Shown piece by piece: positions 14,971 to 19,662 of a stretch of 64,000 nucleotides of DNA; positions within the stretch are counted from its first letter, which is position 1; every line of letters begins with the position of its first letter. The translations under genes and the position numbers were made by a program. The notes beneath the pieces were generated by a model that was not told the origin of the DNA, ran no database searches, and saw only the letters and a list, made by a program, of their open reading frames with translations. The DNA comes from Candidatus Stoquefichus sp. Lineage in GTDB: Bacteria > Bacillota_I > Bacilli_A > Erysipelotrichales > Coprobacillaceae. Location: contig JAETUM010000002.1 of assembly GCA_021768625.1 (NCBI GenBank), forward strand, positions 1-64,000, given 5' to 3'.

Positions 14971-14994
14971 TAGAGTCAATAATTATTGACTCTA
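14971..14994 (-). terminator. lon terminator
   Basis: 24-bp perfect palindrome TAGAGTCAATAATTATTGACTCTA at the lon stop, followed by TTTTT on the minus strand. Confidence 0.85.
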
Positions 14995-17316
14995 CTTTAA
15001 TAATGCATGTTCTAAAACTGTATCTATATGATCAGCTAAAACAATATCTAAATCTTTTTGAACAGATTCAGGGATATCATCAATATCCTTCTCATTATCT
15101 TTTGGGATAATAATCTTTCTAATACCACTACGATGTGCTGAAATAGATTTTTCTTTCAATCCACCAATTGGTAAAACTTGCCCTCTTAAAGTAATTTCTC
15201 CAGTCATAGCAACATCATCACGTACTGGACAATTACTAAAAGCTGATAATATAGCTGTTGTTAAAGTAACTCCAGCACTTGGTCCATCTTTCTTTACTGC
15301 TCCTTCAGGAACATGAATATGAATATCTTCTTTATCAAAAGAAATACTTTGTAACCCATATTTTTCACGATTTGCTTTCATATAGTCTAATGCAATTGAT
15401 GCAGATTCCTTCATAACATCACCTAATTGTCCAGTAATAATAAATTTTCCAGACCCAGTAAAATGATTAACTTCAATTGGTAAGATATCTCCACCATATT
15501 GCGTATATGCCATACCAGTCACAACACCTACTTGAGGTTTATTAAGCTTCTTTGTATGTTCAAATGGTGCTTTTCCTAAAAATTCTTCTAATTCATTCAC
15601 TTGTAAATTGATTTTCAATGATGAATCTTTGAGAACTTTTAAAACAGACTTACGACATACTCTAGCAATCAATCTTTCTAATTGTCTTACCCCTGCTTCT
15701 CTTGTATAATGACGAATAATATACATCATTGTTTCATCAGAAATTGTTAATTGTTCATCTGATAGACCATGTAAATCTAATTGTTTCTTTAATAAATGTC
15801 GTTTTGCTATTTGAAGTTTCTCTTGTTCTGTATAAGAAGAAATTTCAATAACTTCTAATCTATCTCTTAAAGGTTCAGGAATACTACCTAAATCATTTGC
15901 AGTCGCAATAAATAGAACTTTAGATAAATCATATGACTCTTCTAAATAATTATCAGAGAAAAACTGATTTTGTTCTGGATCTAAAACTTCAAGCATTGCA
16001 CTTGTTGGATCACCTTTATAATCACTAGACATTTTATCAATTTCATCTAATAAAAATACAGGATTAATCACACCAGCTTTCTTCATTCCTTGAATAATAC
16101 GTCCTGGCATAGATCCTAAATAAGTTCTACGATGTCCTCTTATTTCTGATTCATCTTTCACACCACCTAAAGATGCTTTCACAAACTTTCTATTCAATGC
16201 ACGTGCAATAGATTTAGAAATAGATGTCTTTCCTACTCCAGGTGGACCAACTAAACAAATAATTGGTGCATTAAGATTTTGAGTCATTTGTTTAACAGCT
16301 AAGTGTTCAACAATTCTTTCTTTTGGTTTTTCTAATCCAAAATGATCTTCATCAAGAATTTGTTCTACTCGAGAAATATCTTGTTCATCTTCAGTCTCTT
16401 GATACCATGGTGTTTTCATCACCCAATCAATATACGTTCTTACAACATTCGCTTCTTGAGAAGCAGCTGGCATCATATCATATCGACGTAATTCTTCTTC
16501 AATCTTATCTTTAATATGTTGAGGATAAGGTTTACTTTTTATCTCCTCACGTATAAAATCAGTATCATCTTCTTTATTAGGAGTATCTCCTAATTCTTCT
16601 TTAATAGCACGTAATTTTTCTCTTAAATAGTATTCTTTTTGATTCTCATCAATACTTTCCTTAACTTTTAAATTAATCTTCTCTTCTAATTCATTAATAA
16701 CTTTTTCTTCTTCCATACTCGCTAAAACCAATAATAAACGCTTATTAATATCAGTTTCAGCTAAAATATTTTGTTTTGTAGGAAGTTCAACATTAATATA
16801 TTGACCAATAGTATCAGCCAAAGCACTTGCAGTCATACCATGTGAAATATTCGAAAAAACTTCTCTAGGAAACATTTGTAAATTTTTATTCATCGCTTGC
16901 ATTTGTGCACTTACTTTTCTGACTAATGCAATTTCTTCATTTTTATCTCCAGAAACATCTTCAAGATATTTCACTTTTGCAAAAAAGCATCCATCTCTGT
17001 CTTCTAAAGTTAAAATTTCTACTCTTTTTTCACCTTTAACAGTTAATTTAATTGTTCCATGATTATCTCTTTTGATTCTTCTTTTAACTTTACAAAGAGT
17101 CCCATAATGATAAACATGTTCAAAATCAGTTGCTTCATCAAGAGGATTTTTTTGTGAAATAAAGATGATATTTTCATCAAATTCATTTACACTTCTATCA
17201 ATCGCTTTAAGACTAAAGTTTCTTCCCACATCTAAAGATATTTCATGTTCAGGAAAAACAATCATACCACGAGTACAAATAACAGGTAAATCAACTACAA
17301 TTTCTGTTTCATCCAT
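14992..17316 (-). CDS. lon: ATP-dependent protease Lon
   Basis: Hexameric AAA+ serine protease that degrades misfolded and regulatory proteins. It has an N-terminal LON substrate-binding domain (1-~200), a coiled helical region, Walker A GPPGVGKT (~355), Walker B FLLDEID and a C-terminal S16 domain with the catalytic Ser in DGPSAG (~678) and the Lys about 43 residues later. Length 774 matches Bacillus LonA. The start follows a good AGGAGG. No CtsR heptad repeats or CIRCE were seen in its own upstream region. clpX, which lies between tig and lon in Bacillus, is absent here. Confidence 0.97.
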   Translation of the reverse strand: MDETEIVVDLPVICTRGMIVFPEHEISLDVGRNFSLKAIDRSVNEFDENIIFISQKNPLDEATDFEHVYHYGTLCKVKRRIKRDNHGTIKLTVKGEKRVEILTLEDRDGCFFAKVKYLEDVSGDKNEEIALVRKVSAQMQAMNKNLQMFPREVFSNISHGMTASALADTIGQYINVELPTKQNILAETDINKRLLLVLASMEEEKVINELEEKINLKVKESIDENQKEYYLREKLRAIKEELGDTPNKEDDTDFIREEIKSKPYPQHIKDKIEEELRRYDMMPAASQEANVVRTYIDWVMKTPWYQETEDEQDISRVEQILDEDHFGLEKPKERIVEHLAVKQMTQNLNAPIICLVGPPGVGKTSISKSIARALNRKFVKASLGGVKDESEIRGHRRTYLGSMPGRIIQGMKKAGVINPVFLLDEIDKMSSDYKGDPTSAMLEVLDPEQNQFFSDNYLEESYDLSKVLFIATANDLGSIPEPLRDRLEVIEISSYTEQEKLQIAKRHLLKKQLDLHGLSDEQLTISDETMMYIIRHYTREAGVRQLERLIARVCRKSVLKVLKDSSLKINLQVNELEEFLGKAPFEHTKKLNKPQVGVVTGMAYTQYGGDILPIEVNHFTGSGKFIITGQLGDVMKESASIALDYMKANREKYGLQSISFDKEDIHIHVPEGAVKKDGPSAGVTLTTAILSAFSNCPVRDDVAMTGEITLRGQVLPIGGLKEKSISAHRSGIRKIIIPKDNEKDIDDIPESVQKDLDIVLADHIDTVLEHALLK

Positions 17317-17376: not shown

Positions 17377-17395
17377 AAGACGCTTGAAGCGTCTT
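17377..17395 (-). terminator. tig terminator
   Basis: AAGACGC/GCGTCTT stem with 5-base loop and a GTTTTC tail on the minus strand, overlapping the tig stop. Confidence 0.8.
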
Positions 17396-18674
17396 ATTTC
17401 ACATTATCTTTGATTAATTGAACAGCTTTTCTAGTAGCTAAATCATTTTCAATTTGTCCAAGTTGACCTTCAAAAATTTGCTTCACTTCGTCAACTTCTC
17501 TACCATAATATTCAGCAATAGCTTTAATTTCATCATTTATTTCATCTTCTGTGACTTCAATATTTTCAGCCTTCACAATTTCAGAAAGAATTAAATTAAA
17601 TTTCACACGATCTTCAGCTTGTTCTCTCATTTCAGCTTTCATATCTTCAGTTGTCTTTCCAGTTAATTGTTGGAATAATTCCATATTCAACCCTTGTTGA
17701 GCAATATTTTGTTCTACTTCTCTTAACATATTTTGTGTTTCTGTTTCTATCATAACTTCAGGAACATCAAAAGGTGTATTACTAATAACTGCTTTAAAGA
17801 TTTCATCATTGAATTTATTTTCAGCTTCAGTTTGTTTTCTATTTTTAATTTGTTCTTTTGTATAAGTTTCTAAATCAGCTAATGTTTCAATACCATCAAT
17901 ATTAATATCTTTAGCTAATTCATCATCAATTTCAGGTAATACTTTTGTCTTAATTTCATGAACTTTAACCTTAAATACAACTTCTTGTCCAGCTAATTCT
18001 TTTGCTTGATAATTTTCTGGGAAAGTGACATTTAATTCTTTTTCTTCATCAACTTTCATACCAATCACTTGTTCTTCAAATCCAGGAATAAAGCTTCCAG
18101 AGCCAATTTCTAAAGGATGATTTTCACCTTTTCCACCATCAAAAGCAACACCATCTTTAAATCCCTCAAAATCAATAACTGCAGTATCTCCGTTTTCTAC
18201 AGCACCATCTTCTTTAATGACTAATTCAGCAAATTGATTTTGATAATTCTTTAATTCTTCTTCAATTTCTTTCTTTGTAACTCTAACAGCAGATTTTTTA
18301 ACCTCTAATCCCTTATATTGTCCTAATTCAAATTCAGGAGCAACAGGAGCAACAACAGTTACTTTTAAAACATCTTCAGTTAATTCATCTACTTTTACTT
18401 GTGGTTGCCCTACAGGTTGAACATTATTGTCTAATAAAATACCTGCATAATTCTTTTGTAAAATAATATCAGTTGCTTCTTCTAAAATAGCTGCTTTTCC
18501 AATTCTTGCTTTTACCATTTTAGCAGGAGCTTTCCCTTGTCTAAATCCATCAATTTTTACATTTCTTGCTAATTTTGTTAATGCTTTATCTTGAGCATCT
18601 TTCCATTCTTCAGTTGAGAATGTCACTTTTACTTCTACTTCACAATTTTCTAGTTTGTTACAAACTGTTTCCAT
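17394..18674 (-). CDS. tig: Trigger factor
   Basis: Ribosome-associated chaperone and peptidyl-prolyl isomerase. The ribosome-binding loop GFRQGKAP (~43-50), the FKBP domain (VIDFEGFKDGVAFDGG, then IPGFEEQVIGM, ~155-245) and the helical C-terminal arms are all present in 426 residues. The start follows GGAGGAAG. It has its own sigma-A promoter, and a CIRCE-type inverted repeat sits just upstream of the -35, which suggests heat-shock control by HrcA. Confidence 0.97.
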   Translation of the reverse strand: METVCNKLENCEVEVKVTFSTEEWKDAQDKALTKLARNVKIDGFRQGKAPAKMVKARIGKAAILEEATDIILQKNYAGILLDNNVQPVGQPQVKVDELTEDVLKVTVVAPVAPEFELGQYKGLEVKKSAVRVTKKEIEEELKNYQNQFAELVIKEDGAVENGDTAVIDFEGFKDGVAFDGGKGENHPLEIGSGSFIPGFEEQVIGMKVDEEKELNVTFPENYQAKELAGQEVVFKVKVHEIKTKVLPEIDDELAKDINIDGIETLADLETYTKEQIKNRKQTEAENKFNDEIFKAVISNTPFDVPEVMIETETQNMLREVEQNIAQQGLNMELFQQLTGKTTEDMKAEMREQAEDRVKFNLILSEIVKAENIEVTEDEINDEIKAIAEYYGREVDEVKQIFEGQLGQIENDLATRKAVQLIKDNVK

Positions 18675-18704
18675 TTATACTTCCTCCATTATTTCAACAC
18701 GGTT

Positions 18705-18733
18705 ATTATACATGAATCATTGTCATAATGCAA
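18705..18733 (-). promoter_or_regulatory. tig promoter
   Basis: TTGCAT (18728-18733), 17-bp spacer, TATAAT (18705-18710) on the minus strand, about 30 bases before the start codon. Confidence 0.85.
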
Positions 18734-18738
18734 CTATT

Positions 18739-18765
18739 TTAACACTCTATTTGTTTGAGTGCTAA
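18739..18765. promoter_or_regulatory. CIRCE operator (HrcA site) next to tig promoter
   Basis: Minus strand TTAGCACTC, nine-base spacer, GAGTGTTAA: 17 of 18 arm positions match the CIRCE consensus TTAGCACTC-N9-GAGTGCTAA. It overlaps the last nine sense codons plus stop of the upstream TPR gene and ends 5 bases upstream of the tig -35 box. HrcA bound here could hinder polymerase at -35. Confidence 0.75.
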
Positions 18766-19662
18766 AATTTTTTGTTCAATTTCACTTCTATCACAATAAT
18801 ATAAGATTTCTAAATCATCAAAATCAACAGATATTGACTGTAATGTTGCAACATAATAATGAATAGTTGCTGCCATCACTTGATATTCATCATCATACAA
18901 TTCTTTAGGATATATTGAATATAAATAATATTCTAAATATTCAACACATTGTTGGAAAAGTGTTGGATTTTCATCCTCTAATGCATTTTCTAAACACTTA
19001 GCAACACCTTCATATTGACTTTGTTGCAAAACAAGGGGCATATAACTTGGATTAAAATGATAAATATTCCCAAATTTTTCAACCTCAAAATCTTCATCAA
19101 TTTGTTGTTCAATCATTATTTCCATCAAGATAGATTTTGCAAAATAATGACGTTCTGGATGACTTAAATATTCCCTAATTGTTGGAATAATCAATCTTAT
19201 ATTTAATTGTTGTAATTGATCTAATGCCATATATAATAAATCTTCATTACAATCTTTATTTTTTAATATTTGTTCAATTTCTTCAATAGAAAAAATTTGA
19301 TTCTTTGATTCTACTTCCCAATTGGCCTCTTGTTTATCTAATAAAACTTGATCATAAGCAGTATTGAATAACATTTCATATTGATAAGGTATATAGGGCA
19401 TAGATAGTTCTTCTATCAATATATCGATAGCTTCATCATAATCACCTAACTCTTTTAATGTTGTGACATACATAGAAACAACATCATAATATGTTTCTTT
19501 TGCACTTGCTTTTGCCAATATCCCTTCTTGTTTTGCCTGTTGATATTCTTCTAACCCAACTAAACAAACAAGTCTTAAATATCTTGTATTTTCATCATTC
19601 ATATCATTAAGCATAGATAATGCTTGTCGATATTCTCCATCTTGAATCAGTTCTTCAATCAT
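18739..19662 (-). CDS. TPR-like protein of unknown function
   Basis: A 307-residue soluble, acidic protein made of short helical pairs, such as GEYRQALSMLNDM and GDYDEAIDILIEEL. This pattern suggests tetratricopeptide repeats in the first ~80 residues, followed by a longer helical region. No catalytic motif is visible. The start at 19662 follows GAGGAGG. It stands alone between the phosphofructokinase terminator and tig. Its final codons double as a CIRCE operator. A protein-interaction role is a guess. Confidence 0.65.
   Translation of the reverse strand: MIEELIQDGEYRQALSMLNDMNDENTRYLRLVCLVGLEEYQQAKQEGILAKASAKETYYDVVSMYVTTLKELGDYDEAIDILIEELSMPYIPYQYEMLFNTAYDQVLLDKQEANWEVESKNQIFSIEEIEQILKNKDCNEDLLYMALDQLQQLNIRLIIPTIREYLSHPERHYFAKSILMEIMIEQQIDEDFEVEKFGNIYHFNPSYMPLVLQQSQYEGVAKCLENALEDENPTLFQQCVEYLEYYLYSIYPKELYDDEYQVMAATIHYYVATLQSISVDFDDLEILYYCDRSEIEQKILALKQIEC

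Follow-up and report, generated by a model that had tools for sequence, protein, structure and literature searches.

A CIRCE element that forms the 3′ end of a neighbouring gene very probably is a functional HrcA operator of the promoter of tig, the trigger factor gene, in the window analysed here, a stretch of 64,000 nucleotides from a Candidatus Stoquefichus sp. The operator would have arisen once and would act, probably on tig together with the protease gene lon, through a partial repression that is relieved by heat. HrcA control of tig had been proposed by a sequence-only reading of the window, and this proposal gains support from the presence of hrcA, the occurrence of CIRCE at chaperone promoters, the conservation of the CIRCE arms and the decoupling of the element from the coding sequence in two lineages.

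For the detection of CIRCE elements the pattern TTAGCACTC-N9-GAGTGCTAA was used, and few mismatches were allowed. At positions 18739..18765 of the minus strand, the putative operator TTAGCACTC AAACAAATA GAGTGTTAA agrees with this pattern at 17 of the 18 arm positions. It has a single mismatch and is the sole match with at most three mismatches within the 64-kb window, while dinucleotide shuffles of the window yielded a mean of 0.02 matches at the same threshold, and its earlier description as near-perfect thus stands. On the minus strand, the element is followed after 5 bp by the −35 hexamer TTGCAT (18728..18733), a 17-bp spacer and the −10 hexamer TATAAT (18705..18710; consensus match, predicted start), then by the ribosome binding site GGAGGAAG (18680..18687) and the ATG of tig, an arrangement of gap and promoter that had been described correctly before. 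Counted from the promoter hexamers, the element spans roughly −67 to −41 with its centre at about −54, and it adjoins the promoter and has no overlap with the core promoter. The gene tig (17394..18674, minus strand) encodes a trigger factor of 426 amino acids (TIGR00115, E=1.1e-133) with Trigger_N, FKBP_C and Trigger_C domains. With a gap of 77 bp, tig is followed on the same strand by lon for the ATP-dependent protease La (14992..17316; TIGR00763, E=9.1e-278), and lon is located directly 3′ of tig in nearly all related loci where this part is visible.

The genome possesses one copy of hrcA (TIGR00331, E=6.6e-103), the gene on which the proposed control depends, and hrcA was present in 40 of 40 genomes searched. 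In the complete assembly (2.92 Mb, 138 contigs), nine CIRCE elements with at most three mismatches were found and a reversed control pattern gave no match. Apart from the single site at tig, these are eight elements arranged as pairs before hrcA-grpE, groES-groEL, clpB and htpG, so that the arms expected at the chaperone genes of the same genome were recovered as related sites, two each, with 1-3 mismatches. In the pairs of clpB, htpG and hrcA, the TTGACA −35 hexamer falls within one element and the second is located between the −10 hexamer and the ribosome binding site; the tig element shares neither position, and most other CIRCE elements of the genome overlap the promoter. A search for CtsR was negative in all 40 relatives, but since it missed the B. 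subtilis control too, it does not count as evidence here.

All 43 genomes of the family yielded a trigger factor gene, and the DNA upstream of tig was read. The tig CIRCE is kept in 22 of 22 genomes from 12 genera, which all belong to one clade of the tig tree (UFboot 99, SH-aLRT 98-99). In these genomes, the element precedes the tig start codon by 87-96 bp and the sequence TTGCA by 4-6 bp in every member, and its right arm always reads GAGTG[T/A]TAA, also where it is non-coding. None of the 22 copies has the consensus C at position 24 (T in 16, A in 6), which might weaken the binding of HrcA, and no perfect 18/18 element is found among the family matches listed. The departure from GAGTGCTAA to GAGTGTTAA is not forced by coding, because the consensus TGC also encodes cysteine. 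The sister clade of 16 genomes is without a tig CIRCE and its TPR proteins end in ...IEY at the same alignment position; weak sites with other spacers were sought at tig in the CIRCE-free members of the family and none was found. The simplest reading is that substitutions in codons already present created the operator once, on the stem branch of the clade. The 22 genomes would then share a single origin of the site and testify to its retention, not to 22 independent origins. Elsewhere in the family, G002 carries a CIRCE upstream of the TPR gene instead of at tig. As a separate observation, G001 (L056), which lies outside the clade, has only a left arm (TTAGCACTT, ...LALGQLK) at the 3′ end of its TPR gene, representing a site that is either incipient or decayed.

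The overlapped gene (18739..19662, minus strand) encodes a TPR-like DUF3196 protein of 307 amino acids. In its frame, the 27 bp of the element read TTA GCA CTC AAA CAA ATA GAG TGT TAA, and the same bases therefore encode eight residues (L-A-L-K-Q-I-E-C) and the TAA stop codon instead of the last nine residues that had been reported earlier. A protein profile search with the DUF3196 protein returned a weak match to PDB 1td6, annotated as ‘MG237 homolog’ (E=2.9e-4); MG237 presumably adjoins tig and lon in M. genitalium. A fold search with the structure model of the TPR protein gave generic TPR proteins only, a confident match being absent, and the tail LALKQIEC is predicted to consist of the last helix turn and a lower-confidence end. 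In a class-wide search for the TPR gene, two genomes of another family showed the TPR-tig-lon synteny without CIRCE, and in the seven mycoplasma-sized genomes of the family f5 neither tig nor lon was matched at a distance of up to about 3 kb from the TPR gene, TGA being read inside the TPR frame in several of them. CIRCE elements upstream of a DUF3196/TPR gene that precedes tig-lon were observed at the loci L071, L079, L084, L114, L118 and others, as well as at L022, and this position suggests that the uncharacterised TPR protein is itself a product of a proteostasis gene.

The degree of conservation was assessed by per-column parsimony on the tig tree and by a comparison of codons in the 17 coding copies from 10 genera. 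The arms of the CIRCE require 3 steps over 18 columns, the 9-bp spacer requires 4.1 steps per column and the 60 upstream columns used for comparison, which are non-coding in g7 and g19, require 5.2 steps per column, with 6.3 at third positions. Within the element, the codons TTA, GCA and GAG are each found in 17 of 17 coding copies and CTC in 15 of 17. In the rest of the TPR gene, none of the invariant leucine or alanine columns of the 17 copies has a fixed codon, and CTC and GAG reach maxima of 3/17 and 4/17, respectively. The use of CTC and GAG at the element prevails despite a usage in the window of only 0.9% of leucine and 12.6% of glutamate codons, and these values bear out the assumption that the C-terminus of the TPR protein is constrained by the operator. 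Two genera, Longibaculum (g19) and g7, have a TPR gene that stops earlier with a different tail (...LLLKQIEV, or ...FNRIEVL and FNRIDVL), and an intact CIRCE is located there in the intergenic region at an unchanged distance to the tig promoter. The junction of the TPR gene and tig was readable in four genomes of these lineages, G018 (Longibaculum muris DSM 29487), G022, G006 and G048, and in all four the TPR gene remains upstream of tig with extra sequence intervening. The decoupling is apparently independent in g19 and g7, as they are not sisters in the tree, in which some nearby forks are open. Parsimony, codon fixation and the intact operator outside of the TPR gene in two lineages agree that the arms are conserved beyond their codon meaning and, as judged from these comparisons, it is the operator and not the peptide that is conserved.

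Further elements were found in a sister family, in which 29 of 71 sampled tig loci have a CIRCE with at most three mismatches in the TPR-tig-lon stretch. In the commonest layout, the CIRCE encloses TTGAC and precedes tig by about 65 bp; in other layouts it stands ahead of the TPR gene, higher in the tig leader or between tig and lon, the last being represented by two CIRCE elements with a promoter of their own in L100 (2822-2892), following a terminator-like hairpin. Where the element overlaps the TPR 3′ end in the sister family, it does so in all three reading phases, with the tails ...LALFN, ...FSTL or ...LSTH, and ...INL or ...MNI, and this variety, too, speaks for conservation of the operator and not of a peptide. 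A set of 80 mostly named genome loci was taken separately, in which a tig-proximal CIRCE occurs only in Longibaculum, Solobacterium, Erysipelothrix and one Erysipelotrichaceae record, a weak match with three mismatches in Tenericutes MO-XQ (L160) being left out of the count; none was found among the loci of Bacillaceae, Paenibacillus, Lactobacillales, Staphylococcaceae and Clostridia in this set. The operator placements thus comprise positions ahead of the TPR gene, in its final codons, at the tig −35 hexamer and between tig and lon. On balance, we favour the wider scenario that TPR(DUF3196)-tig-lon of the Erysipelotrichales was repeatedly drawn into the HrcA regulon by de novo operators, and that the operator in the clade of the window was born in coding sequence and later freed in two lineages, if with clearly less assurance than the function of the site in the window. 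Since CIRCE recurs at TPR-tig-lon in the sister family and is once located between tig and lon, the likely target of HrcA is probably tig-lon and not tig alone, and we infer that lon is cotranscribed from the tig promoter. Directly at the tig stop codon and before lon, a strong stem-loop (17377..17395, minus strand; AAGACGCTTCAAGCGTCTT then GTTTTC) has a fold z-score of −5.7. It was not among the calls of a terminator scan; it is a possible weak terminator or attenuator of tig-lon read-through, and may uncouple lon from the tig promoter. Three trigger-factor-like genes (L014, L057, L058) were observed in one relative, G009.

The position of the element also allows other explanations. HrcA could act as a roadblock or insulator that halts transcription reading through from the TPR gene into tig and have little direct effect on the promoter, and the overlap of the CIRCE with the TPR stop codon upstream of the −35 hexamer would fit this role, as would the terminator scan, in which no clear terminator was found after the TPR gene. 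However, the −35 hexamer follows the site at a fixed 4-6 bp in 22 of 22 genomes, which ties the site to the promoter and not to the TPR gene, and g7 and g19 keep this spacing though the TPR stop codon moved away, which makes the roadblock unlikely. HrcA bound at about −54 might also act positively or neutrally on tig, considering that a single site outside the core promoter is unlike the footprinted sites of Campylobacter and Helicobacter; to our knowledge, however, HrcA is known only as a repressor, and the commonest layout in the sister family overlaps the −35 hexamer, as a repressor site does, so that this role appears quite improbable. As the palindrome can pair at the end of the TPR message, it could instead form an RNA stem-loop that ends or protects this mRNA and would not be a DNA operator. 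Its folding is, however, unremarkable in comparison with shuffles (z −1.5), a U-run after the palindrome is absent, 6 of the 22 genomes have an A at position 24 that can no longer pair with G4 and show no compensating change, and the arms, which are specifically those of CIRCE and are present at chaperone promoters too, are frozen in sequence and not in pairing; on the grounds of the uncompensated A and the fold score in particular, the hairpin was rejected as a highly improbable candidate. That the likeness to CIRCE is a chance product of a tail LALxxxEC required for TPR function is hardly conceivable: the 17 coding members do share the tail, but it is spelled with CTC and GAG, which are minority codons in the window, corresponds in the model to no more than the last helix turn and a lower-confidence end, is replaced by IEY in the sister clade, and differs in g7 and g19 while the CIRCE persists outside of the gene, which already contradicts such a coincidence.

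With the CIRCE as an operator of the tig promoter, HrcA would at rest cover positions of about −67 to −41, on the face that immediately precedes the −35 hexamer, and would probably limit the contact of the alpha-CTD and sigma of RNA polymerase. As a guess from the geometry, partial rather than tight repression that keeps a basal level of trigger factor is expected, because the site is single, upstream of −35 and off-consensus at position 24. Upon heat or misfolding stress, GroE would be titrated, HrcA would let go, and tig and lon would be induced together with groE, hrcA-grpE, clpB and htpG. The operator would have been born once, in the stem of the clade and within the 3′-terminal codons of the DUF3196 gene, and thereafter the DNA site and not the peptide would have fixed those codons, until two lineages undid the overlap and the operator stayed in place.

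HrcA and CIRCE themselves constitute a classical system, and the sequence comparisons suggest that in one common group of gut bacteria it extends to trigger factor and Lon. A description of CIRCE at tig was not found in the literature searched, and the portions of the regulon literature on Lactobacillales and delta-proteobacteria that were available do not report it. In B. subtilis, HrcA is described as repressor of the dnaK and groE operons (PMC8957991). The system of the window shares the operator consensus, the repressor family TIGR00331 and the chaperone targets with the regulon of B. subtilis and the Firmicutes, but differs from it by tig-lon as an added target, by the single site upstream of the −35 hexamer and by the location of this operator in the last codons of a neighbouring gene. 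An upstream HrcA site is also unusual because footprinting places the HrcA sites of Campylobacter and Helicobacter over the core promoter and the start site (PMC7464140, PMC6032397). In Acholeplasma laidlawii, heat raised the activity of HrcA-dependent promoters about 100-fold (PMC5138195). With regard to lon, a link exists to the CIRCE known from mycoplasmas: lon is listed as a CIRCE gene in M. gallisepticum (PMC4245973) and S. melliferum (PMC5138195), and in M. pneumoniae, lon is preceded by a CIRCE and is transcribed from the tig promoter as well (PMC7737663). The window resembles these Mollicutes in a putative CIRCE control of lon, and M. pneumoniae in having it at the same tig-lon gene pair. 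No CIRCE with at most three mismatches is present between tig and lon in the window, where a Mollicute-type element would lie; unlike in M. pneumoniae, the element is located upstream of tig, so that tig is included, whereas L100 of the sister family has the M. pneumoniae-like arrangement between both genes. The locus furthermore offers a natural test of the overlap of operator and coding sequence, in which the DNA word is kept and the peptide changes, shifts its phase or is dropped and, if the proposed history is true, it would be a worked example of a regulatory site that was captured from, and then released by, protein-coding sequence.
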